The notes under the pieces are model-generated. The model worked only from the letters and a program-made list of their open reading frames with translations. It was not told where the DNA came from and did no database searches. 20,056 nucleotides of DNA from positions 1-20,056 of IMG/VR virus record IMGVR_UViG_3300034682_000149; one strand, written 5' to 3'. The translations under genes were made by a program, and so were the position numbers. Of the stretch, positions 8,313 to 17,118 are shown piece by piece. How positions within the stretch are numbered: position 1 is the stretch's first letter; each line of letters begins with the position of its first letter. This DNA comes from a virus.

Positions 8313-9060
8313 GGCCGGCCTCCTCGATCACGTTCTCGGCGCGCTTCTTCAGCGCGGGCAGGTGGGCGGCGAGCGCGCGGCGCTGATCCTTCGTGAGCTT
8401 GCCCCAGATTTCTTCCAGCGCGGCGGTGCCGGTGTCGGCGATCGCCTCGAGGTCCGCCAGCAGCTTTTGGTCTGCCTCGGTGAACTCGACCGTCATCGCC
8501 TGCTCCGCAACGGCCGCCGCGTTCTGTCGGCCCGGCGCCGGCCGGTCGTTCACGTCCACGATGCGCTCCGCCTCGTCCTGGTCGTAGATGCCCACGTAGC
8601 CGAACGCCAGGCGCGCGCACTGGATCATGGCCTTGTGGCGCAGCATGCGCTTGGGATGCGACTGCCAAGGCTGCGTGCCGCGCTTGCACTCGCTCAGGTA
8701 TTCGGTGACCTTGATGGGGTGCGTGCGGTCCTTGCGGAAGATGATGCAGGTGCATCCCTCTTCGTCCTGCTGGAAGTCCATCCCGTCGAACATCGGGTTC
8801 TCGTTGATGATGCGCGCCCAGCCGTCGACGCCGACCACCGGCACGATGCCGTTGTTCTTGTCCGGGAATGCGTAAATCTCCTTCGTCCACGGGTTCAGGC
8901 GGTACTGGTTCGCCACGATCAGCAGCGCGCTCATCTGCGCGTCCGAGACCTGGCCCTTGAACGCGGTCGCCTTCAGCACGCTGACCAGTTCGGCCGATTC
9001 CGGGATGTCGAACAGGCCGGCCAGCTTCGACGCCTGCTGAACTACGAGTTGGGTGCTCAC
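8305..9060 (-). CDS. bet: Bet/RecT-family single-strand annealing protein
   Basis: A 251-residue protein matching the phage recombination protein Bet/RecT family. Typical segments are LLIVANQYRLNPWTKEIYAFP (about 46-66), GIVPVVGVDGWARIINENP (71-89), PIKVTEYLSECKRGTQPWQSHPKRMLRHKAMIQCARLAFGYVGIYDQDEAERI. The C-terminus is variable and helical. With the exonuclease it forms a Red-like recombination system that can repair or circularise phage DNA and drive mosaic exchange. It follows the 34-residue small ORF after a gap of 38 bases. Confidence 0.94.
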   Translation of the reverse strand: MSTQLVVQQASKLAGLFDIPESAELVSVLKATAFKGQVSDAQMSALLIVANQYRLNPWTKEIYAFPDKNNGIVPVVGVDGWARIINENPMFDGMDFQQDEEGCTCIIFRKDRTHPIKVTEYLSECKRGTQPWQSHPKRMLRHKAMIQCARLAFGYVGIYDQDEAERIVDVNDRPAPGRQNAAAVAEQAMTVEFTEADQKLLADLEAIADTGTAALEEIWGKLTKDQRRALAAHLPALKKRAENVIEEAGHA

Positions 9061-9098
9061 GATGTTGCCTTTCTGCCGGGACTCTGCCGGCGCGGGGT

Positions 9099-9203
9099 TT
9101 AGAAACCTTTTAGGTACGTCCGCAGCGCGCGGACAGCTGCCTTGCGCGGGCCGAAGCCGGCGCGCAGGGAGAGGCGGTATTGGGTTCGTATGTGGCTAAA
9201 CAT
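9099..9203 (-). CDS. Small basic ORF (34 aa) between HNH gene and bet
   Basis: A 34-residue frame, MFSHIRTQYRLSLRAGFGPR followed by KAAVRALRTYLKGF. GGGAG lies seven bases before the ATG at 9201-9203. The frame overlaps the HNH stop codon region by 8 bases, which fits the tight packing of this operon, and it fills most of the gap between the HNH gene and bet. The product would be very basic and helical. No family recognised; coding status rests on the ribosome binding site and context. Confidence 0.5.
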   Translation of the reverse strand: MFSHIRTQYRLSLRAGFGPRKAAVRALRTYLKGF

Positions 9204-9702
9204 CGGACTGCTCCCTAAGAAAATCGCCAAAATAGTATTCAGCAGCCGCTACATATGCGCAGGAAGCTTCTTCTGGACTAGGAAAGCTACCCAGATATAT
9301 CTGCCTTCCGCGAACACGGATTTGCGCTTGCCAACGCGAAGCAGACCTCTGGCAGACTCCCTTATAGCCACTGGTATTGTTCACGCGCTTCGCAGTATTT
9401 GCCTGGTTTTGGAAGTAGTCAGCCACGCGGAGGTTGCTGATGCGGTTATCGCTCCGCACTCCGTTAATGTGGTCAAGGTTCCCGGCAGGCCACTCCCCGT
9501 AATACATCGCCCAGGCCACACGATGAGCTTTCAACTGGCGCGCATCAACGCTGAGAACAGCGTACCCTTCAAGGTTGACCCACCCCGCATCAGCGCCGGC
9601 GACACGATGGCTCATAGCGCAGGAATTTTTCCATTTGATCGCGCCGGTTGCAGGTTCATAGACCAACAGCTCATTGAGCCGTTCGATGGCCGGGGCGCTC
9701 AT
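9196..9702 (-). CDS. HNH endonuclease with AP2 domain
   Basis: A 168-residue free-standing homing-type endonuclease. The HNH core is HRVAWAMYYGEWPAGNLDHINGVRSDNRISNLR, where DHINGV and NRISNLR are the usual metal and backbone-binding elements. The C-terminal half has TSGYKGVCQRSASRWQAQIRVRGRQIYLGSFPSPEEASCAYVAAA, a clear AP2/ERF-like DNA-binding domain. I set the start at the ATG at 9700-9702: it has GGGAGG six bases upstream and overlaps the preceding stop as ATGA; the frame upstream is only the antisense-like extension of the neighbour. It differs in sequence from the HNH gene at 7222-7671, so the two were probably acquired separately. Confidence 0.9.
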   Translation of the reverse strand: MSAPAIERLNELLVYEPATGAIKWKNSCAMSHRVAGADAGWVNLEGYAVLSVDARQLKAHRVAWAMYYGEWPAGNLDHINGVRSDNRISNLRVADYFQNQANTAKRVNNTSGYKGVCQRSASRWQAQIRVRGRQIYLGSFPSPEEASCAYVAAAEYYFGDFLREQSDV

Positions 9703-9878
9703 GCGAAGCCTCCCTCGACCGCGCGCAGCCGGGTCATCAGCTCGACCTGCCGCTTGTGCTCGGCGTTCAGCGCGATCTGATGGCGGATCACGGCCAGGCG
9801 CAGCGGCTTGAGCAGCTTGCGCGCCAGGCGGCGCAGGACGCGGTACGGGCCGCGGTGGATGCGGGTGGCGGCGGTCAT
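9699..9878 (-). CDS. Small basic hypothetical protein
   Basis: A 59-residue protein beginning MTAATRIHRGPYRVLRRLAR. The first half is strongly basic, with alternating Arg/Leu that could form an amphipathic helix, and the second half is IALNAEHKRQVELMTRLRA. The start at 9878 is chosen because it overlaps the previous stop as ATGA. No family recognised. It lies between the HTPGPW-type gene and the HNH gene. Confidence 0.6.
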   Translation of the reverse strand: MTAATRIHRGPYRVLRRLARKLLKPLRLAVIRHQIALNAEHKRQVELMTRLRAVEGGFA

Positions 9879-10183
9879 GCGGCACTCCCGGTAGCTTTGG
9901 CGATCGCGGCTTCCAGCGCTTCGCCAGCAGGTGTCGCCATCAGGTCGACGCATTCGGTGAGAGCTTGGCGAGCGGCCGCCAACAGATCGGGCGCCGCTGC
10001 GATCAGGCGCAGGTTCGCCAGATTCTCGGCCGCGTCAGCATCCCAGTAGCCAATCGCGCCGCGCACATAGGCGTAGCCCAGCTGATCCTCACCGTCTTGC
10101 GGCAGGCCATGCACGGTACAAACCTCTGCCGGGCGAGTGTCGTAGTCGATTTCCCATGGTCCTGGTGTATGTGCTGCGCTCAT
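9875..10183 (-). CDS. Conserved phage protein of the HTPGPW type
   Basis: A 102-residue protein with two marks common to many phage early-region proteins: HTPGPWEIDYD at the N-terminus and ENLANLRLIAAAPDLLAAARQAL in the middle, ending AAIAKATG. Proteins with this arrangement are widespread in prophages but have no assigned role; some belong to or resemble the Ea22 group. The ATG at 10183 has GGAG seven bases upstream. The gene is preceded by the repeated GC-rich motif at 10205-10222. Confidence 0.75.
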   Translation of the reverse strand: MSAAHTPGPWEIDYDTRPAEVCTVHGLPQDGEDQLGYAYVRGAIGYWDADAAENLANLRLIAAAPDLLAAARQALTECVDLMATPAGEALEAAIAKATGSAA

Positions 10184-10204
10184 CCCTGCTCTCCTTCGTT
10201 GGCG

Positions 10205-10521
10205 CCGGCGCGGCCGGCTTCGTCTGTGATTAGTTGCGCTTGAAACTCAAGCCGGCCGTCTCCAAAGCAGCCATCGCGCGGTCAGCGGTATCGGCACGGA
10301 AGTTCTTGCCCTCGATGATCTGGCCGCTGTGGAAGTCCGGATCGCACACGCGCAACTCGTCGGCTTCGATGATGTCGAGCAGCGGCTTTGCGGAATCCTC
10401 GGTATCGTTCAGCGTCTGCGAGGGATACAGCTTCCGCAGGAAGTTCAGTGCGTTGCCGCGATTGCAGGTTGCGAATGCAAACATGTGTTTCTCCTTTGTT
10501 TATCCGGCGCGGCCGGCTTCG
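10205..10521. repeat. 18-bp direct repeat ahead of two consecutive ribosome binding sites
   Basis: CCGGCGCGGCCGGCTTCG is found at 10205-10222 and at 10504-10521. On the leftward strand each copy lies a few bases before a Shine-Dalgarno (AAGGAG) and the start of a gene (10183 and 10484). The core can form a short GCCGG/CCGGC hairpin. It may mark a junction used in gene-cassette exchange. Confidence 0.6.
10230..10484 (-). CDS. Hypothetical phage protein
   Basis: An 84-residue protein (MFAFATCNRGNALNFLRKLYPSQTL...) with GGAG six bases before the ATG. It has a hydrophobic beginning, an acidic middle (DTEDSAKPLLDIIEADELRVCDPDF) and ends AALETAGLSFKRN. No family recognised. Both flanks carry the 18-bp repeat described separately, which suggests that the gene with its leader is a cassette. 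Confidence 0.65.
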   Translation of the reverse strand: MFAFATCNRGNALNFLRKLYPSQTLNDTEDSAKPLLDIIEADELRVCDPDFHSGQIIEGKNFRADTADRAMAALETAGLSFKRN

Positions 10522-10903
10522 GTATTAGTGCCGGTTACGTCTCCGGCGCCGCTGGTGCGGCCGTGCATGGCTTTGCCTTTACGCGGAACTGTGCTGCTCC
10601 ATGCTTCCCCGCGTGTGGTGGCCGGTGCTGGTCTCCGGCTTGGCGCGGCATCAACCCCGTTCTCGCCACTCTTTCGCTGCGCATCAGCCTGCACATTCAC
10701 CACAGGAGGGCCGGCTGCTGCCCGCGCTGACTAGGCATAGGCATTCGGTCGTCAACCGCAACCGGCCCTCCTGTGGCCACCCCTTACGAGGGTGAGGCGG
10801 CACCTGACGTAGTGCGAACGGGGCATGCTCAGTTCCCACTGTCCCGTTCACTGACCCGGGCAAGGCAATCCGCGCGTTCCGGGGCGCGGCGCACCGTTCA
10901 ATC
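10485..10903. other. Gene-poor gap in the left operon
   Basis: About 420 bases without a convincing gene. A leftward frame at 10500-10703 starts only with GTG and has no ribosome binding site. It ends with the residues TEAGRAG, encoded by the 18-bp repeat. A very short frame following AGGAGG at 10771-10766 runs inside the large inverted repeat and would encode a Cys-containing peptide from a TTG. On the plus strand nothing has a start signal. The notable content is the 15-bp inverted repeat at 10700-10776. Confidence 0.6.
10700..10776. repeat. Perfect 15-bp inverted repeat with 47-base loop
   Basis: CCACAGGAGGGCCGG at 10700-10714 is exactly complementary to CCGGCCCTCCTGTGG at 10762-10776. 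In RNA of either strand this gives a stable 15-bp GC-rich stem enclosing 47 bases. Each arm contains AGGAGG on one strand, so the stem would hide a Shine-Dalgarno. No T run follows on either side, so it is not an ordinary intrinsic terminator. Confidence 0.85.
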
Positions 10904-11281
10904 TCAGAAGGGCGGAACGATCTCGGCCGTATCAGGAATCTCGTCGCGCCAGATTTGAGGGATCTCGCCGCCGTGCCAAACGTTGTTGCTGACCCACTCG
11001 CGCGAGCCGTCCAGCATGCGGAAATGGAAGCGGTGACCAGCGAACCCGAGAAAGCGCCCATCGCCGGGGTTGTCAACATTCCCGCCGTCCGTGTAGATGT
11101 TTCCGCCAGCGACAACCGCCGTGCTGTGGTGGTGACGATTCGGCGTCTTGACCGGGTCATTGAGGAAGCGCCAGTAGAAGTCACAGCTGAAGCAGAGCTG
11201 ACGCGCCGTGAGGTCCGCTTTCGTTTTTTCGTTGTAGTGGCACTCTTCCTGGGCGCCACACTTCACGCAGGTATGGCTCAT
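10904..11281 (-). CDS. Hypothetical phage protein with zinc-ribbon-like Cys pairs
   Basis: A 125-residue protein. The N-terminus has CVKCGAQEECHYNEKTKADLTARQLCFSC, two CxxC pairs (C5/C8 and C30/C33) spaced as in a small zinc ribbon. The rest is rich in aromatic and Asn/Gly residues (NPGDGRFLGFAGHRFHFRMLDGSREWVSNNVWHGGEIPQIW), suggesting a compact beta fold. I recognise no named family. The start overlaps the upstream stop as ATGA. Confidence 0.75.
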   Translation of the reverse strand: MSHTCVKCGAQEECHYNEKTKADLTARQLCFSCDFYWRFLNDPVKTPNRHHHSTAVVAGGNIYTDGGNVDNPGDGRFLGFAGHRFHFRMLDGSREWVSNNVWHGGEIPQIWRDEIPDTAEIVPPF

Positions 11282-11619
11282 GCCGCCACCCGGTCGAGGT
11301 AGCGGTGAATGCGGTCATTGATCGAGGCCTCGGCCATGTCCTGCATCAGGACGTTCACGGTGTTCGTCGCGTCCTTCTCGCAGACAGCGCGCATGGCGCC
11401 GAGGATCAGGCCATCGAACCGCGCCTGCGCACCTTCCGCATCGATGGCCGACTGGATGAAGACCGACTTCGCGTCGTCCTCGGTCAGGCGCTCCAGCGCG
11501 GTGTTGTGCAGGTCGCGCACCGCGCGCTGGCTGCCGGCCTTCAGCTCGGCGATCCAGTCGCCCAGCAGGCGCTCGGTGATTTCGGCAATCTTTTCTTCGC
11601 GGGTTGGTTTGTGGGTCAT
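11278..11619 (-). CDS. Hypothetical phage protein, helical
   Basis: A 113-residue acidic, almost wholly alpha-helical protein (MTHKPTREEKIAEITERLLGD...). GGAG lies six bases upstream of the ATG. Segments such as EKIAEITERLLGDWIAELKAG and NTALERLTEDDAKSVFIQSAIDAEG are amphipathic. There is no Cys, no signal peptide and no recognised family. It is the second gene of the pL operon. Confidence 0.7.
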   Translation of the reverse strand: MTHKPTREEKIAEITERLLGDWIAELKAGSQRAVRDLHNTALERLTEDDAKSVFIQSAIDAEGAQARFDGLILGAMRAVCEKDATNTVNVLMQDMAEASINDRIHRYLDRVAA

Positions 11620-11663
11620 CGGGGTCTCCAGGCTGGCCCACCGAAGCGGGCGCGGGGTGGTGG

Positions 11664-11984
11664 TTAGGTAGCGTCGCCTACAACATCGAAACCAAGCGCG
11701 GAATCGTCATCATCCAGCTCGGCATGCTGCCGGGCACTGCGCAGGTTGCTAGCGCTGCGAATTGCGAACAGGTCCGGCGCAGCAGCCAATGCGACGCAAT
11801 CCTCAGCCGAAAACTTAAGGTTCAAGCGGCGAGCCTCGGCGAAGAAATCCGCTGCAACAATCGGCGCGATTGGTTGCGCAGCTTTGCCGACCCAGCCAAT
11901 ACCCTTGAGGTAGACCAACGTACCAGCCTCGTTCTGATCTTTGAAGATATAGCCGTGTTTCAGGTCGTAGCCGATACGTTCCAT
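11664..11984 (-). CDS. First gene of the pL operon, hypothetical
   Basis: A 106-residue protein (MERIGYDLKHGYIFKDQNEAGTLVYLKGIGWVG...) with GGAG six bases upstream. The middle, VAADFFAEARRLNLKFSAEDCVALAAAPDLFAIRSASNLRSARQHAELDDDD, contains the LAAAPDL-type segment seen in other left-operon proteins here. It occupies the position of N in lambda, but it lacks an N-terminal arginine-rich motif, so I would not call it an antiterminator. It lies about 60 bases downstream of the predicted pL start. Confidence 0.7.
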   Translation of the reverse strand: MERIGYDLKHGYIFKDQNEAGTLVYLKGIGWVGKAAQPIAPIVAADFFAEARRLNLKFSAEDCVALAAAPDLFAIRSASNLRSARQHAELDDDDSALGFDVVGDAT

Positions 11985-12049
11985 GTTCTTCTCCAGTTCT
12001 CGCCGCGCTGCGGCCGGTGCGCCCTGCTGGGCTCGGTTGCGATGGAGTG

Positions 12050-12078
12050 ATTATCACGTATGTGTTTAGCGTTGTCAA
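12050..12078 (-). promoter_or_regulatory. pL-like leftward early promoter
   Basis: On the minus strand: -35 TTGACA (12078-12073), a 17-base spacer and -10 GATAAT (12055-12050). This is a near-consensus sigma-70 promoter aimed at the left operon. Both ends are covered by operator-like sites of the kind found at pR, so it should be repressed by CI. Confidence 0.85.
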
Positions 12079-12091
12079 ACACAATCGTGAT
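12053..12091. promoter_or_regulatory. OL-like repressor operators
   Basis: Two related sites: ATCACGTATGTGTT at 12053-12066 and, inverted, AACACAATCGTGAT at 12078-12091, 25 bases apart. They match the ATCACGNNNGTGTT pattern found three times at the cI-cro junction. They cover the -10 and the -35 of pL. The protein that binds is inferred to be CI or Cro. Confidence 0.75.
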
Positions 12092-12107
12092 TTTTACTGC
12101 GGATTTT

Positions 12108-12116
12108 TGCTACACT
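12108..12116 (+). promoter_or_regulatory. Possible rightward extended -10 promoter
   Basis: TGCTACACT gives a TGn extension followed by -10 TACACT. The -35 region (about 12088-12093) is poor, and it overlaps the operator at 12078-12091. This could drive the small rightward gene at 12199. It is weak evidence. Confidence 0.3.
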
Positions 12117-12163
12117 GTGTTCAGCCCGAACAGTTCAGGCAGCCGGCCCCGGCGTAGGGGCGT

Positions 12164-12186
12164 AAAAAAGCCCGCGCGTGGCGGGC
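12164..12186 (-). terminator. Intrinsic terminator for the cI-side leftward transcript
   Basis: Read on the minus strand: GCCCGC, loop CACGC, GCGGGC, then six T. A clean rho-independent terminator that should stop leftward transcription from the Cas2-like gene before it reaches pL. Confidence 0.85.
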
Positions 12187-12198
12187 ATGGAGGATGAG

Positions 12199-12405
12199 AT
12201 GGTTGTACTACCGAAGGGAACGCTAATTAAGCTGCGTGGACTCCCGTTCCGGCTGAAGGAGGATACACCGGTCGATGGACTGCAGGAGAACTACAACCTC
12301 GCGATGAGCCAGTCCGATGCTGATGTTGGAAGTCTCCATGCGGAGTTTGCTGTCACCTCAGAGACGAACAGCGTGTCATCCGCATCGATTGCGGCGACCA
12401 AGTAA
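12199..12405 (+). CDS. Small phage protein, convergent with the Cas2-like gene
   Basis: A 68-residue protein starting MVVLPKGTLIKLRGLPFRLK. I chose the ATG at 12199 because GGAGG lies five bases upstream; an earlier ATG at 12187 would lie against the terminator hairpin. The first 40 residues (KGTLIKLRGLPFRLKEDTPVDGLQENYNLAMSQ) look like a short beta domain found in other small phage proteins. The last third is Ser/Ala-rich and is encoded opposite the 3' end of the Cas2-like gene, so it may simply be what the overlap allows. It is the only rightward gene inside the immunity region left of pR. Function unknown. Confidence 0.6.
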   Translation: MVVLPKGTLIKLRGLPFRLKEDTPVDGLQENYNLAMSQSDADVGSLHAEFAVTSETNSVSSASIAATK

Positions 12406-12557
12406 TCTCTAAGTTGCGCAGACGTCGCATCGCTAACGATAAACCACACTGAATCGAGGGCTTTACACCACTCTTTGCCAGCGGCCTTTAGTCGATCATA
12501 TAGACGGGGATAATTCTTTTCGTTATTAAGATCATAGGTGACAACATAAACGGTCAT
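12291..12557 (-). CDS. Cas2-fold (SinR-family) small protein
   Basis: An 88-residue protein starting MTVYVVTYDLNNEKNYPRLY. The pattern hhhhTYDLN at the N-terminus, then YPRLYDRLKAAGKEWCKALDSVWFIVSD, SAQLRDYLVAAIDADDTLFVSEV and a final WL, is that of the small ferredoxin-like proteins annotated as SinR family, which belong to the Cas2/VapD superfamily. It is not related to Bacillus SinR, and no CRISPR array or cas1 is present. I set the start at the ATG at 12557, with GGGGAG eight bases upstream. Base composition is more AT-rich than the surroundings. It is a lysogenic accessory gene in the cI transcript; a role in superinfection exclusion or toxicity is possible but unproven. Confidence 0.7.
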   Translation of the reverse strand: MTVYVVTYDLNNEKNYPRLYDRLKAAGKEWCKALDSVWFIVSDATSAQLRDYLVAAIDADDTLFVSEVTANSAWRLPTSASDWLIARL

Positions 12558-12586
12558 AAGGCCCACTCCCCTTTTAATTAATCGAC

Positions 12587-12612
12587 TCCCCGCCACGGCG
12601 GGGATTATTTTT
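12587..12612 (+). terminator. Rightward intrinsic terminator between the two accessory genes
   Basis: On the plus strand: TCCCCGCC paired with GGCGGGGA (tetraloop CACG inside) followed by TTATTTTT. It would end a rightward transcript of the 12199 gene just upstream of the Cas2-like start. It overlaps the stop codon of the exported-protein gene. On the minus strand no T run follows, so leftward transcription is probably not stopped. Confidence 0.7.
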
Positions 12613-13057
12613 AGAACTTCGGCGTTGCGATCACGCACGGCCCAGCGAATATAGGGTACGCCGATGCTGGGACGGTAGCGATCCGTTCTTTCTGTTCTTC
12701 CGAAAAATATTCGCCATGGGTCGGAGTGGGCAGCGTCATGAAGGCAAGTCGTCCTGTCACCCGGTCAAGTGTTGCGACAGTCTCGCGGCTGACGCCAGGG
12801 ATTCCAGGATCGACGTCCTTAATTTTCCCCTCAATTCGGTGGGGCTCGAACTTCGCATCTTTAAATGCCAGGCCGGACACGATAATTGATCTGTCTGCCT
12901 CGTTTATAACAACGGAAAACGGCGCTTTTTCCTTAGTCGTTACATTGACAGTGTCGCACGATAGGGAGACTGGTCCGGTGGGTGCTGACGCGCCGAAGGC
13001 GTGAATAGCAGGCCCCATTAAGATCACTGCTGCTATAACGGTGCTTCTATTTATCAT
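12611..13057 (-). CDS. Exported hypothetical protein (lysogenic accessory gene)
   Basis: A 148-residue protein with a likely signal peptide: MINRSTVIAAVILMGPAIHA, then FGASA, with cleavage probably after one of these Ala residues. The mature part has two cysteines (in LSCDTVNV and AGPCVIAT) that could form a disulfide in the periplasm. The rest is beta-rich (APFSVVINEADRSIIVSGL, RETVATLDRVTGRLAFMTL). No family recognised. AGGGA lies five bases before the ATG. It lies directly downstream of cI and upstream of the Cas2-like gene, so it is probably expressed in the lysogen. Exported proteins here often alter the host surface or block superinfection; that is inference. Its base composition is lower in GC than the phage core genes. 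Confidence 0.75.
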   Translation of the reverse strand: MINRSTVIAAVILMGPAIHAFGASAPTGPVSLSCDTVNVTTKEKAPFSVVINEADRSIIVSGLAFKDAKFEPHRIEGKIKDVDPGIPGVSRETVATLDRVTGRLAFMTLPTPTHGEYFSEEQKERIATVPASAYPIFAGPCVIATPKF

Positions 13058-13095
13058 TCTGATCCCTAGTCTAAATGGCGCGCCGTTACGCCTTT

Positions 13096-13818
13096 TTATA
13101 AACGGCCGGTTAGAACCCTGGTCGGCTGAATTACGACGCGCCCCACAATGCTGACCTGGGCACTTTTCGTGTTCACCGGCGGGTGATCTTCATGCAACGA
13201 ACGCAGATACCACTGACCGCCCTTATGGATCAGCTGCTTGACGCATGATTCACCGTTAACATTCACCGCATAGACCTCGCGGCTGATTGGCTTGATGTCG
13301 GAACGATCGATGACCACGACGTCATCCTCGAACAACATTGGCTCCATGCTTACGCCTCGCACGCGCACCGCCAAAAGGTTCGATGGGTTGAGCTGGAGCT
13401 CGGCAATGACTGATGCCGGAATCAGCTCGTGCCCATCGTCGCCCAGGTCGGGTTCTGTCTCGTAGTTGGCCACGCCAGCCCGAAGACGTAGCTTCACGCG
13501 CGGGACGGCAATAGTGCCCGGCCTCTCACCAGCACGCACTGGCCGGCCCTCGATCGTCGCGGCGCCGTCCTCGATAAAGGGCGAGTCGCTCACGGAAGTG
13601 CTTGGCTCGACGCTCATCTCGCCCTTGCCGTTCGCGAGCCATGTGGGGTCAACCTCAAGAGCCCCCGCGATATCCACGATTGACCTTGCTGTGTTGCGCA
13701 ACCCGGCCTCTAGGTTGCCGATGGTGCTCTGAGAGACGCCGGCCAATTTTGCCAACGCCCCCTGCGTGAGACCCTTGCGTTCGCGCGCGAAGGTCAGTCG
13801 TTCTGCCAAGTTTTTCAT
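13096..13818 (-). CDS. cI: CI-type repressor with S24 peptidase domain
   Basis: A 240-residue repressor that should hold the prophage silent by binding the operators at pL and pR. Residues 1-60 form a Cro/C1-type helix-turn-helix (AERLTFARERKGLTQGALAKLAGVSQSTIGNLEAG). The linker is followed by the S24 (LexA-like) autopeptidase domain: the cleavage site is Ala-Gly at 114/115 (RLRAGVA), Ser157 lies in GVSMEP and Lys194 in ESCVKQL. It should therefore be cleaved after RecA activation in the SOS response, giving UV or drug induction. I chose the ATG at 13818; the frame extends upstream to 13836 but the longer start runs into the operator. No Shine-Dalgarno precedes the ATG, which is normal for cI in lambda from pRM. 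Confidence 0.95.
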   Translation of the reverse strand: MKNLAERLTFARERKGLTQGALAKLAGVSQSTIGNLEAGLRNTARSIVDIAGALEVDPTWLANGKGEMSVEPSTSVSDSPFIEDGAATIEGRPVRAGERPGTIAVPRVKLRLRAGVANYETEPDLGDDGHELIPASVIAELQLNPSNLLAVRVRGVSMEPMLFEDDVVVIDRSDIKPISREVYAVNVNGESCVKQLIHKGGQWYLRSLHEDHPPVNTKSAQVSIVGRVVIQPTRVLTGRL

Positions 13819-13880
13819 ATCACGAATGTAATACACATTTTAATCACGTTGGTGTTTGACATCACAAACACAAACGTGAT
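13819..13880. promoter_or_regulatory. OR-like operators (three sites, 24-bp spacing)
   Basis: Three sites: ATCACGAATGTAAT at 13819-13832 (the weakest match, touching the cI start), ATCACGTTGGTGTT at 13843-13856, and inverted AACACAAACGTGAT at 13867-13880. The starts are exactly 24 bases apart. The last two overlap the -35 and -10 of pR. The pattern repeats at pL. The order resembles OR3-OR2-OR1 of lambda. Confidence 0.8.
13837..13865 (-). promoter_or_regulatory. Possible pRM-like cI promoter
   Basis: On the minus strand, TAAAAT at 13842-13837 is a good -10. Seventeen bases upstream is GTGATG (13865-13860), a poor -35. A weak -35 is expected if the promoter is activated by CI bound at the middle operator. 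The predicted leader to cI is only about a dozen bases. Confidence 0.4.
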
Positions 13881-13883
13881 AAT
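13856..13883 (+). promoter_or_regulatory. pR-like rightward early promoter
   Basis: -35 TTGACA at 13856-13861, a 16-base spacer and -10 GATAAT at 13878-13883. The elements are the same as at pL. Transcription should begin at about 13890, almost at the cro ATG (13892), so the cro message may have almost no leader. Confidence 0.85.
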
Positions 13884-13891
13884 GTGACGGC

Positions 13892-14101
13892 ATGGACTTC
13901 CAAAAAATCACCTCTGACCTCTTGGGGACTGGCCTGACCGAGCAGCAGCTTGCTGACTTGGTCCCGTGCAGCCAGCCGACGATCAACGCGTTCCGGCATG
14001 GCAAGCGCGGCGCCCGACCCTCAATGGTGATCGGAAGTCGCTTGCTGGAACTTCACAAGCAGCGTTGCAAGAAGCCGCGCGCCGCACCTCAGCCGCAATA
14101 A
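13892..14101 (+). CDS. cro: Cro-like repressor
   Basis: A 69-residue protein, MDFQKITSDLLGTGLTEQQL..., with a compact helix-turn-helix: LTEQQLADLVPCSQPTINAFRHGKRG. The size and the position, divergent from cI and directly after pR, make it the Cro analogue that would favour lytic growth. The basic tail (HKQRCKKPRAAPQPQ) may add DNA contacts. No ribosome binding site precedes the ATG; with the start of transcription predicted about two bases upstream the message could be leaderless. A terminator overlaps its stop codon. Confidence 0.85.
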   Translation: MDFQKITSDLLGTGLTEQQLADLVPCSQPTINAFRHGKRGARPSMVIGSRLLELHKQRCKKPRAAPQPQ

Positions 14102-14118
14102 CCCGCGGCTTTTTCTTT
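14091..14118 (+). terminator. tR1-like terminator after cro
   Basis: AGCCGC (14091-14096), an 8-base loop, GCGGCT (14105-14110), then TTTTCTTT. The hairpin includes the cro stop codon. It stands where tR1 stands in lambda, and would limit transcription of the replication genes until antitermination or read-through. Confidence 0.75.
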
Positions 14119-14191
14119 CGGGCAGAAAGTTGCCCACGGGCTCATGCCCAGCATCACCCCTTCGAAATCCGCATCAACCAAGGAGAAGTAA

Positions 14192-14464
14192 ATGAAGAAC
14201 CCGAGCCCGACCCTGATCGAAGCCGCGTTGGCGAACTTAGACGACGGACCGCGCGACCAGATCATCCGAGTTCGCGCGACCCAGAAGCAGAAGGACATGT
14301 TCGCCAAGTGTTCCGCTGCAAAGGGCCTGCCCAGCGCTACCCATGCGCACCTGCTGCTCATGCGTGCTGTGAGTGCCCATGTTAGGCCGCGCCACCCGGT
14401 GCGTACAGGGGCCGCTCGTGGGCCAGTTGGCCGCGCGGTGGCGACTGGCCGGAGGCACCTTTAA
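14192..14464 (+). CDS. Small protein in the cII position, possibly ribbon-helix-helix
   Basis: A 90-residue protein with AAGGAG and good spacing before the ATG. The first half, DGPRDQIIRVRATQKQKDMFAKCSAAKGLPSATHAHLLLMRA, resembles a ribbon-helix-helix DNA-binding domain: a short beta strand IIRVRAT followed by two helices. It lacks the sequence of lambda CII, although the place between cro and the initiator gene is that of cII. The second half (SAHVRPRHPVRTGAARGPVG...) is basic and disordered and may be less constrained. Regulatory role inferred from place and fold. Confidence 0.6.
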   Translation: MKNPSPTLIEAALANLDDGPRDQIIRVRATQKQKDMFAKCSAAKGLPSATHAHLLLMRAVSAHVRPRHPVRTGAARGPVGRAVATGRRHL

Positions 14465-14495
14465 TGGCTTCCGGCTTCGTGGCCAGGAGACAGGC

Positions 14496-14524
14496 AAAAA
14501 AACGGCCCGGGTAGAGACCGGGCC
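14496..14524 (-). terminator. Leftward intrinsic terminator
   Basis: On the minus strand: GGCCCGG, loop TCTCTAC, CCGGGCC, then G-less spacer and seven T (14502-14496). It is a strong terminator for leftward RNA although no leftward gene lies to its right, which points to a short leftward RNA. Confidence 0.8.
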
Positions 14525-14543
14525 ATGAAAGGATTTCAACAGT
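14496..14543 (-). ncRNA. Predicted oop-like antisense RNA
   Basis: A leftward promoter at 14578-14550 followed closely by the leftward terminator at 14524-14496 would make an RNA of about 48 bases. It is complementary to the region holding the Shine-Dalgarno (AAAGGA) and reaching the GTG start of the 14542 gene. Lambda makes a 77-base leftward oop RNA from the same region, just right of cII. The position and the promoter-terminator pair are seen in the sequence; expression and function are inference. Confidence 0.45.
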
Positions 14544-14742
14544 GAGCAAATTATCACCCGAAAACCGCGCGGCGACAAAGGTTATCGCCAAGGCGTGTGA
14601 CTGGGTCGACCAGCGGCGCAATGCAGCGGCTGCGCCACAGGACCAGAAAGCACGCGAGGTCGGTCTGCTTAAGCTCAGCGGCAAGGAGCTGGCCGAGGCT
14701 GTCGAGAAATATCGCAAGGCGGGGAAGGCCGGCCAGCCATGA
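14542..14742 (+). CDS. Small hypothetical phage protein (GTG start)
   Basis: A 66-residue basic protein, MSKLSPENRAATKVIAKACD..., helical and Lys-rich at its C-terminus. The GTG at 14542 has AAAGGA eight bases upstream. No family recognised. Its stop overlaps the next start (ATGA at 14739). Its ribosome binding site is covered by the predicted antisense RNA. Confidence 0.65.
   Translation: MSKLSPENRAATKVIAKACDWVDQRRNAAAAPQDQKAREVGLLKLSGKELAEAVEKYRKAGKAGQP
14550..14578 (-). promoter_or_regulatory. Leftward promoter of the predicted antisense RNA
   Basis: On the minus strand: -35 TTGTCG (14578-14573), a 17-base spacer, -10 GATAAT (14555-14550). The -10 matches five of six consensus bases and the -35 four of six. 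It lies inside the start of the 14542 gene, facing the terminator at 14524-14496. Confidence 0.5.
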
Positions 14743-14957
14743 CGACCTATGCCACCTACGGCCCAACCAGCTTGGGCCACTACATCATCGGCTACCCCAC
14801 CCCGGGCGCTCCCTACGTCCTGACCGCCGCCGGCGTCGCCTCTACGAAAGCTGGCGCCGACGAAGAATGCGCGCGCCGCAATGAGGCCCAGGTGGCCGAG
14901 CAGCGCGCCTCCCTCGCCCGCAAAGCATCCCTCATCATCCTGGACGCGGAGCGCTGA
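14739..14957 (+). CDS. Small hypothetical phage protein
   Basis: A 72-residue protein. The N-terminal half is rich in Tyr, Gly and Pro (MTTYATYGPTSLGHYIIGYP...) and the C-terminal half is an Ala/Glu/Arg helix (ADEECARRNEAQVAEQRASLARKASL). It could be a small beta hairpin followed by a coiled coil. No family recognised. It is tied to the gene before it by ATGA overlap and lies 2 bases from the initiator gene. Confidence 0.6.
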   Translation: MTTYATYGPTSLGHYIIGYPTPGAPYVLTAAGVASTKAGADEECARRNEAQVAEQRASLARKASLIILDAER

Positions 14958-14959
14958 CC

Positions 14960-15787
14960 ATGGCCAACGGTATCGACTGGTTCCGCTGGCACCACGGCAG
15001 CGTGAACGATCCTAAATTCGGCCTGGTCGCCAAGAAAGCTGGCGCGCGCGTCGGCGACGTCATCGCCGTGTGGGCGCTGGTGTTGGAGCAGGCCAGCGCA
15101 AGCACCGAGCGCGGCACGTTCAGCGCGATCGACCACGAAGCAACCGACTTCCTCCTGGGCGCCGACGAAGGCACCACCGAACGCATCCTCGAAGCCATGC
15201 AAGCCCGTTCGCTGATCGACGGCGACCGCGTCACGCGCTGGGAAGATCGTCAGCCCAAACGTGAGCGCGTCGACACCACGGCGGCCGAGCGCAAGCGTGC
15301 GCAACGCGAGCGTGACAGTGAGCGTGACACGGATTCTCATGGCTCAAATGCTGATGTCACACCAAGTCACGCCACGTCACACCAAGTCACGCCTAGAGAA
15401 GAGGAGAGTAGAGAAGAACATAAAAATCCCCCCATACCCCCCGCTGGGGGGCAGCCCGTCGAGCAGAAACGAAAAGCAGCCGTTTCCCTGCAGACCTTCC
15501 TGGCTGACTGCCGTTCGGTCGGCGAGAAGCCGATCCCCGACGACGACCCAGTGTTCGCCTATGCCGACAAGGTTGGACTGCCGGCCGAGTTCCTGTCGCT
15601 GCACTGGCGCGAGTTCAAGGATCGCTACCTGGCGCCGGGGGCGAAGCGCTACACCGCCTGGCGCACCGTGATGCTGAAGTCGGTCAAGGGCAACTGGTTC
15701 AAGCTCTGGTTCGTCGGCAATGACGGCAACTACGCCCTGACCACGGTCGGCCAGCAGGCCCAGCGCAACCACGCGGAGGCCGCATGA
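14960..15787 (+). CDS. O-like phage replication initiator
   Basis: A 275-residue protein. Residues 1-100 (GIDWFRWHHGSVNDPKFGLVAKKAGARVGDVIAVWALVLEQAS) resemble the N-terminal winged-helix domain of phage replisome organisers. The middle (about 105-175) is charged, low-complexity sequence whose DNA carries iterons. The C-terminal part, VFAYADKVGLPAEFLSLHWREFKDRYLAPGAKRYTAWRTVMLKSVKGNW, is a DnaT-like DNA-binding domain. The place directly before a DnaB-type helicase makes it the initiator that loads the helicase at the phage origin. GGAG lies eight bases before the ATG, and its stop overlaps the helicase start (ATGA). Confidence 0.85.
   Translation: MANGIDWFRWHHGSVNDPKFGLVAKKAGARVGDVIAVWALVLEQASASTERGTFSAIDHEATDFLLGADEGTTERILEAMQARSLIDGDRVTRWEDRQPKRERVDTTAAERKRAQRERDSERDTDSHGSNADVTPSHATSHQVTPREEESREEHKNPPIPPAGGQPVEQKRKAAVSLQTFLADCRSVGEKPIPDDDPVFAYADKVGLPAEFLSLHWREFKDRYLAPGAKRYTAWRTVMLKSVKGNWFKLWFVGNDGNYALTTVGQQAQRNHAEAA
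15312..15451. repeat. Iterons inside the initiator gene, probable replication origin
   Basis: GTCACACCAAGTCACGCC occurs twice in tandem at 15356-15373 and 15376-15393, so GTCAC falls at 15356, 15366, 15376 and 15386, exactly one helical turn apart. Two inverted copies, GTGAC, lie at 15312 and 15324. A purine-rich stretch, a short A-rich run and a palindrome of six C, GCT and six G (15437-15451) follow. Lambda also has its origin inside gene O. Confidence 0.7.
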
Positions 15788-17118
15788 TCGACCTGTTCAA
15801 CATCCAGGCAGAGCAGGATGTGCTGGGTGCCCTGCTGCGCGACAACGACGCCATCGACCGCATCCCCGAGCTCGACGCGGCGCACTTCTTCCGCGGCGAC
15901 CACCGCGCGATGTTCACCGAGATCGCTGCGCAGCTCGCCGCCGGCAAGCGCGTCGACGCCGTGACCCTGGCGGACAAGGTCGGCGCCGACGCCCTGCCCT
16001 ACCTGGCCAGCCTGCACGGATCAGCATCGAGCGCGGCGAAGATCGAGTACCACGCCCGGATCGTGGTCGAGAAGGCGACGAAGCGCGCGCTGCACGCCCT
16101 GTCGGTCGACCTGGCCGCCGACGCCGAATCGATGAAGGACAGCACCGAGTGCATCGCCGACGCCGCCGCGAAGCTGGACGACCTGGCCGCCCGCAAGACG
16201 ACCAAGGATCCGCGCCGCATCGACGAGACCCTGGGCGAGTACCTGACCCTGCTGCAGGACCGGATGGCCGGCAAGATCAAGCCGATTCCGACCGGCTTCC
16301 AGCACCTGGACGAAATGCTCGACGGCGGGTTGGAGCGCGGCACGTTGACGGTAATCGCCGGCCGTCCCGGCACCGGCAAGACGGCCGCCGGGCTGGGCAT
16401 CTGCCGCAACGCCGCGCGCGACCACTCGGCACTGTTCCTGTCCATGGAAATGTCAACTAACCAGGTCAACGACCGTAACATTTCCGCGCTCGCCCAGGTC
16501 GACATGAAGTGGCTGCGCCGGCCCGGCGAAGGCCGCGACGACACCGCGCAGTGGGAGGCCATCACCGCGGCCACGATCAACTCGCGCAACCTGAACCTGT
16601 TCATCGACGATCAGACCTCGCTGAGCATCCCGGATATCCGCGCCAAGGCTCGCAAGATCAAGCGCACGCACGGCCTGGACGTCCTGTGCATCGACCAGCT
16701 CTCGTTCATCACCGGCGCCAAGTCCGACAAGCTGCACGAGGCGATGGGCGAGTACACGCGCGGCCTGATCGCCCTGGGCAAGGAGCTCGACGCCGCCGTG
16801 ATCCTGTTGGCCCAGCTCAACCGCGAATGCGAGAAGCGCGCCGACAAGCGCCCGATCATGTCCGACCTCGGCGTGTCCGGCTACATCGAGCAGGATGCCG
16901 CCAACATCATCTTCCTCTACCGCGACGAGCTGTGGAACCCGGAGACCGAAGACCGCGGCATCTGCGAATGGATCAGCGCCAAGCAGCGGCAGGGCAGCCC
17001 GGGCGTGGTCGGCCTGCAGTACATCGGCTCGCAGACCAGGTTCGAGAACCCGCCCTTCCGCTGGTTCCGGCGCCCACCGGCCGCCAAGCCATCGAGCAAC
17101 CGCGGAGGCTTCGAATGA
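15784..17118 (+). CDS. dnaB: DnaB-type replicative helicase
   Basis: A 444-residue hexameric helicase that would unwind DNA at the phage origin. The N-terminal DnaB domain covers residues 1-100 (FNIQAEQDVLGALLRDNDAIDRIPELDAAHFF). The RecA-like ATPase domain begins near 165 (PTGFQHLDEMLDGGLERGTLTV). Walker A is GRPGTGKT at 193-200 and Walker B is LDVLCIDQL at about 298-306. DnaB motifs QLNRECEKRADKRP and DLGVSGYIEQDAANIIFLYRDE are present, where most members have SGAIEQDAD. It is slightly shorter than the bacterial DnaB. It overlaps the initiator by ATGA and plays the part that lambda P plays by recruiting host DnaB. Confidence 0.95.
   Translation: MIDLFNIQAEQDVLGALLRDNDAIDRIPELDAAHFFRGDHRAMFTEIAAQLAAGKRVDAVTLADKVGADALPYLASLHGSASSAAKIEYHARIVVEKATKRALHALSVDLAADAESMKDSTECIADAAAKLDDLAARKTTKDPRRIDETLGEYLTLLQDRMAGKIKPIPTGFQHLDEMLDGGLERGTLTVIAGRPGTGKTAAGLGICRNAARDHSALFLSMEMSTNQVNDRNISALAQVDMKWLRRPGEGRDDTAQWEAITAATINSRNLNLFIDDQTSLSIPDIRAKARKIKRTHGLDVLCIDQLSFITGAKSDKLHEAMGEYTRGLIALGKELDAAVILLAQLNRECEKRADKRPIMSDLGVSGYIEQDAANIIFLYRDELWNPETEDRGICEWISAKQRQGSPGVVGLQYIGSQTRFENPPFRWFRRPPAAKPSSNRGGFE

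Follow-up and report, generated by a model that had tools for sequence, protein, structure and literature searches.

The window, the whole 20,056-base stretch of DNA analysed here, is an IMG/VR virus record that holds an integrase, early genes and an immunity region (Table 1). Leftward from position 13836 the immunity region carries the genes for a CI-type repressor, a 148-aa protein and a Cas2-like protein, followed by the terminator T_left. The Cas2-like gene, referred to below as the cargo, occupies the position of the lambda rex genes: it lies downstream of cI, on the same strand and before the leftward early promoter PL, and it is exchangeable between related phages. Judged by its gene content and order, the region is a temperate-phage immunity region with a lambda-rex-like layout, in which the cI operon is predicted to end at T_left. 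Opposite the cargo, and read rightward, is a small gene. Both genes are real, and the original prediction that they converge with a coding overlap of 115 bp proved correct in coordinates and in frames.

The 148-aa gene between cI and the cargo gave no match in family and profile searches. It is replaced by other genes in three related loci (L002, L003 and L110). In L002 its place is taken by a Rap1a-family protein (PF18602, E = 1.5e-13), in L003 by a lipoprotein-like one.

Table 1. Genes, operators, promoters and terminators of the immunity region, in window coordinates.
Feature	Position	Strand	Basis or remark
OL1, CI/Cro-type operator, ATCACGTATGTGTTT	12053..12067	+	perfect match to ATCACGNNNGTGTTT
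PL, predicted leftward early promoter, TTGACA-17-GATAAT	12050..12078	-	11/12 consensus positions
OL2, CI/Cro-type operator, ATCACGATTGTGTTT	12077..12091	-	overlaps -35 region of predicted rightward promoter
Predicted rightward promoter, extended -10 TGCTACACT	12108..12116	+	weak -35 near 12087-12093; aligned with relatives
T_left, intrinsic terminator of leftward cI operon	12164..12186	-	stem 12170-12186 plus TTTTTT; within 5' UTR of small gene
Ribosome-binding site GGAGG of small gene	12189..12193	+	sequence
Small gene, 68 aa	12199..12405	+	weak match to phrog_35189, E = 9.2e-5; residues 1-41 folded/conserved, 42-68 predicted disordered
Coding overlap, 115 bp	12291..12405	both	ORF coordinates
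Cas2-fold cargo gene, 88 aa, phrog_1090	12291..12557	-	profile match; Asp9 invariant
T_right, rightward intrinsic terminator	12587..12612	+	stem 12587-12604 plus TTATTTTT; between cargo and next cI-operon gene
Second gene of cI operon, exchangeable, 148 aa, signal-peptide-like N-terminus	12611..13057	-	
CI-type repressor, HTH and S24 peptidase	13096..13836	-	domain/profile matches
OR1, operator, ATCACGTTGGTGTTT	13843..13857	+	match to ATCACGNNNGTGTTT
OR2, operator, ATCACGTTTGTGTTT	13866..13880	-	match to ATCACGNNNGTGTTT
Cro-like HTH protein	13892..14101	+	phrog_6831, E = 8.7e-14

The Cas2-like and small proteins

The Cas2-like protein matches phrog_1090 over residues 1-84 of its 88 residues (E = 1.3e-23). 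The window protein falls below the cut-off of the Pfam CRISPR Cas2 family PF09827 (17.6 bits vs 23.8); 17 of 27 relatives match that family at E <= 0.1, the best of them at 8.5e-9. Its AlphaFold model (pLDDT 94.5) has a predicted Cas2 ferredoxin-like fold with an aspartate, Asp9, at the end of strand 1, and this residue is invariant in the 27 relatives. Foldseek matched the model to Cas2 proteins (E = 1.7e-4 to 8e-4), to GhoS and to BPSL1038, whose TM score of 0.70 was the highest among the top matches. BPSL1038, a DNase, belongs to a Cas2/VapD sub-family (PMC10491678); for free-standing Cas2 homologues a toxin role like that of VapD has been suggested (PMC3506569). The window protein has the fold and the strand-1 aspartate of this group (PMC10491678, PMC3506569), but is only 12-29% identical to the solved members. 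PADLOC returned weak Cas2 matches only, and no cas1 gene or CRISPR array was noticed among the genes inspected around 10900-14800. The Cas2-like genes of the related loci L105 and L106 differ by eight substitutions, all of them synonymous, and on this comparison the gene is under protein-level selection.

The small protein is conserved in its first ~38 residues, which are 57-65% identical in related phages. In its AlphaFold model residues 1-41 are confidently folded and the remainder is predicted to be disordered, and the weak match to phrog_35189 covers residues 2-44 only; an Acinetobacter-type member matches the same family at E = 2.9e-11. The gene is best seen as encoding a protein of ~40 residues with a passive tail. 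A Foldseek search with the small protein found no reliable relative, the small-gene profile search matched no isolate genome, and tblastn of two small-gene homologues against phages gave no matches, nor did single-sequence scans of P0001 against viral sequences and of P0002 against phages. Profile matches of the small protein to designed repeat proteins were weak and are probably not meaningful.

Within the overlap the third codon positions of the two frames face each other, and the small-gene frame stops opposite the RDY motif of the Cas2-like protein. When the Cas2-like gene was recoded synonymously, the exact 68-aa frame arose in 85% of the recodings that followed the codon usage of the window and in 67% of those that followed base composition. 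The tails of the small proteins are unrelated between lineages with different cargo. Because the recodings mostly force the 68-aa frame, and the tail is predicted to be disordered, the 115-bp overlap is largely incidental to the Cas2-like coding sequence. In L110 (3001-3495) a 164-aa rightward frame begins with the small-gene domain and spans the entire 104-aa leftward cargo; this frame is longer than 97% of synonymous recodings, and L110 is the only locus whose frame exceeds the length that most recodings yield (3%).

Terminators and operators of the predicted opposing transcripts

Each strand has a terminator of its own past the opposite gene, as had been proposed, and none lies between the two genes. 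Both terminators are of good quality and both recur in relatives. The number of terminator-like sites was rejected as evidence: seven were found in 9000-16000 compared with 6.3 expected from shuffles, and a count that equals chance proves nothing. Quality was assessed in dinucleotide shuffles of 12100-12700, where the rightward score was reached in 1/300 and the leftward score in 5/300; the folding z-scores of the two terminators are -2.7 and -2.5. T_left is found at the same position in L002, L003, L105, L109, L110 and L065. T_right forms a conserved island of ~25 bp between swapped genes when the window is compared with L003: ACTCCCCGCCACGGCGGGGATTATTT is identical in the two, though neither their cargo genes nor the secreted-protein genes that follow are at all alike. 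L002, L105, L109 and L110 have variants of the T_right hairpin and U-rich tail at this position, where L073 has a hairpin of a different kind. T_right was not found in L065, L066, L085 and L112.

A uniform scan of related cI loci for antisense-directed terminators found them in 7 of the 8 that have the small gene and in 6 of the 40 that lack it (Fisher p = 1.6e-4); L066, L085 and L112 lie outside the scored loci, which makes 7/8 somewhat favourable, and the p value is a guide only because the scanned loci share descent, are mosaic and are not independent. A G+C-rich hairpin followed by ATTATTT was found in 6 of the 8 loci with the small gene and in 1 of the 40 without, the sole exception being L006, which retains a remnant of the small-gene leader. 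Retention of a rightward terminator within a leftward operon would make sense if rightward RNA regularly reaches that point.

The operator motif ATCACGNNNGTGTTT was recognised in the sequence itself and then tested across the window, an automatic palindrome search having missed it. The window contains four perfect matches to it and no more: two flank PL (OL), and the other two lie in the interval from cI to the Cro-like gene (OR). The original prediction named no promoter for the rightward RNA, and a plausible candidate lies beside the OL operators. Its extended -10 sits just past OL2, whose edge overlies the -35 region; the -35 is weak, and a promoter scan made no call at this site. A -10-like element follows repeated operator-like palindromes at the corresponding place in most lineages inspected. 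The palindromes vary in sequence between lineages, and L002 and L105/L106, which have other repressors, carry a different local palindrome that is again common to the cI-cro region. Since operators adjoin the promoter and the palindromes match those of the cI-cro region, the rightward transcript is predicted to be controlled by CI or Cro. The proximal operator of L105 (2911-2923) lies between the -35 and the -10, a position that fits repression only. In the window, as in L003, OL2 is centred at about -39 of the predicted rightward start, ~27 bp upstream of the -10, a geometry that is compatible with repression and could also suit activation by CI.

The candidate promoter and the positions of the terminators support the proposal that each predicted transcript would span the opposite gene. 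The suggested link to the lysis-lysogeny decision also gains support, in that CI-type operators lie directly beside the predicted promoter in the window, L003, L002 and L105/L106, and OL and OR have the same motif; the activity of the rightward promoter, the sign of its control by CI and the effect on cargo expression we infer from this arrangement.

The 5' UTR of the predicted rightward RNA (12117-12198) is itself predicted to be strongly structured (folding z = -1.9), and hairpins lie upstream of the small-gene ribosome-binding site in L003 (z = -3.8) and L105 (z = -3.2). Such structure could affect translation of the small gene or termination.

Cargo exchange in related loci

Related loci with the small gene were collected by profile searches. 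About six lineages, Herminiimonas among them, pair it with a Cas2-like gene. The Cas2-like gene lies opposite the small gene with an overlap of 100 bp in L105, L106 and L108, 112 bp in L085 and 118 bp in L112 (Herminiimonas sp. CN). A very divergent phrog_1090 member takes its place in L109, which is the same locus as L019 (overlap 102 bp). Loci of Acinetobacter type, the host name being a reading of the sequence, also have a Cas2-like gene opposite (L065-L071 and L073), with an overlap of 20-23 bp in L065 and L073.

In three loci an unrelated leftward gene stands in place of the Cas2-like gene, with the small gene and both terminators retained. This cargo is 87 aa long in L003, whose CI and Cro are 85% and 99% identical to those of the window, 78 aa long and Zn-ribbon-like in L002 (phrog_15514), and in L110 the 104-aa cargo described above, which lies wholly inside the rightward frame. 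L111 (Massilia sp.) has an intact Cas2-like gene, and the start of its small gene is replaced by a transposase-like frame, which we take to be of IS6 type. The Cas2-like family also occurs without the small gene, on plasmids and in other phages.

Conservation of the pair in relatives is thus seen in part: it recurs across lineages, and either gene also occurs alone. Relatives that keep one of the two genes while the overlap decays, which the original prediction regarded as telling against the pair, are likewise found to some extent, with the small gene beside other cargo in L003, L002 and L110 and the Cas2-like gene beside a broken small gene in L111. Because the small gene meets unrelated cargo and L111 keeps its Cas2-like gene, the comparison of loci indicates that the pair is ancient and recurrent but not obligate, and that the leftward gene is exchangeable cargo.

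L006 contains, on the reverse complement of 2171-2275, a hydrophobic ORF of 34 aa, MKKRLAKVSWLGDVAKVIGAIALLLRTLHDIGLL, with promoter-like sequence and a strong hairpin on the opposite strand. This arrangement suggests a candidate type I toxin-antitoxin unit. DNA closely resembling it adjoins the Cas2-like gene of L111 on its upstream side.

Proposed regulation of the cargo slot

In an excludon two convergent mRNAs are mutually antisense, no terminator lies between the genes, and alternative promoters decide which of the two is made (PMC7154746). The layout of the window is likewise convergent, with each predicted RNA antisense to the other gene; it differs in that it is predicted from sequence only, lies in a phage immunity region and has an exchangeable gene on one strand. 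The earlier statement that no such pair is known therefore holds, as far as found, for the combination of a Cas2-like gene with this small gene, but convergent overlapping transcripts as such are of a known kind (PMC7154746). Lambda rexAB and Salmonella BTP1 cI-bstA exemplify accessory genes downstream of cI, a known mosaic site for lysogen-expressed genes (PMC7067206, PMC8585504). The window cargo is similarly placed in the cI operon before the leftward early promoter, but it has a Cas2 fold and is opposed by a predicted operator-controlled antisense transcript, whereas what counteracts BstA is a DNA element (aba) and not antisense RNA (PMC8585504). Lambda OOP is a short non-coding antisense RNA that overlaps one 3' end and lowers cII expression (PMC5869508). 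It too is a phage antisense RNA within a lysis-lysogeny control region, but the window RNA would include an ORF and extend over the whole of the cargo gene. Among the open-licence papers searched we found no description of an exchangeable slot combined with an operator-controlled antisense mRNA and a terminator past the slot.

We favour, with a probability of roughly 0.55, a cargo slot at the lambda rex position that is opposed by a convergent, excludon-type transcript under the control of a CI operator, which would silence the cargo when CI is lost. In the lysogen, CI would hold PL, PR and the rightward promoter down, the cI operon would be read through the cargo to T_left, and with the rightward promoter repressed the cargo would be made. 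On loss of CI the rightward promoter, which is back to back with PL, would fire and the small protein would be made. The rightward RNA would cross the whole cargo antisense and halt at T_right, sparing the next operon gene and cI, and would shut off the cargo in cis through dsRNA cleavage, transcriptional interference or both, as in a convergent excludon. Weighing against such a switch are the weak -35 of the rightward promoter, the geometry of OL2, the absence of T_right from some loci and the relatedness of the loci compared. A rather doubtful extension is that the switch is independent of the cargo: loss of CI would lead the operator-controlled RNA to silence any gene in the slot, lytic growth would be unharmed, and T_right would shield cI and its neighbour. 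The slot gene is often a Cas2-fold nuclease and is possibly a defence gene.

The antisense layout could also be mere packing. On this account, which we consider possible though on the whole unlikely, the small gene belongs to the early genes and has a terminator of its own, the cargo was inserted between the two, and the overlap has no regulatory consequence. The T_left-RBS-ATG arrangement seen in most loci with the small gene fits it well, as do an overlap frame that is forced by the cargo under synonymous recoding and a small-protein tail that varies freely in length and sequence. Packing accommodates T_right poorly. In six lineages that differ in cargo, T_right still lies past that gene, and it retains its U-rich tail despite interrupting the opposing operon; a neutral model does not predict that T_right is retained beyond the cargo every time.

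We think it improbable that CI activates the rightward promoter, as it does lambda PRM, so that the small gene and the antisense RNA would be lysogenic and would tune the output of the cargo and of the repressor operon. Lambda OR2 is centred at -42 of PRM, and the position of OL2 in the window and L003 is not far from this; the proximal operator of L105, however, fits repression only.

A dedicated toxin-antitoxin-like pair, in which the Cas2-fold nuclease would be a VapD-like toxin and its antidote would be the small protein or the RNA encoding it, is very improbable. It would agree with the Cas2/VapD/GhoS fold and its invariant aspartate, with the recurrence of the pair and with the toxin role proposed for Cas2 homologues (PMC3506569), but the genes are convergent and do not form an operon, the small gene accompanies unrelated cargo in L002, L003 and L110, the Cas2-like family stands alone on plasmids and in other phages, and L111 keeps its Cas2-like gene beside a broken small gene. 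The original suggestion of a pair that holds a toxic product in check is not borne out by these loci, and an obligate pair of the VapD/VapX or GhoT/GhoS type was rejected because each gene occurs without the other. Selection for the overlapping coding itself, in which both proteins need the shared 115 bp, was rejected as next to impossible on the synonymous recodings, which show the window frame to be forced, and on a tail (residues 42-68) that is predicted to be disordered and is unrelated across cargo types, although the frame is open in all intact loci and the long frame of L110 is exceptional among its recodings.

Genes that protect the lysogen from other phages are frequent in prophages, and the aba element of BstA is one answer to how such a prophage spares its own lytic growth (PMC8585504). 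If the silencing of the slot by a CI-controlled convergent RNA is true, repressor-controlled antisense transcription of any gene beside the repressor would be a second and general answer, independent of the cargo protein. The phage would then have a ready-made switch that silences any occupant of the slot, and the Cas2-fold family phrog_1090, which is unannotated, would be a lysogen-expressed accessory gene and a candidate for defence.

Staphylococcus and Enterococcus phages also have members of phrog_1090, named 'SinR' or 'Cas2'. These genes share the strand of the repressor, lie antisense within the early lytic operon and are followed by a small ORF that converges on them. This placement is what a lysogen-expressed accessory gene would be expected to look like. 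The loci differ from the window in that the small ORFs belong to phrog_12362 and phrog_13078 and the coding overlap in the annotated records is 4 bp or none. Genes of phrog_1090 type were also observed on small enterobacterial plasmids of 3-16 kb (L062, L063 and L064), where they are often unannotated.
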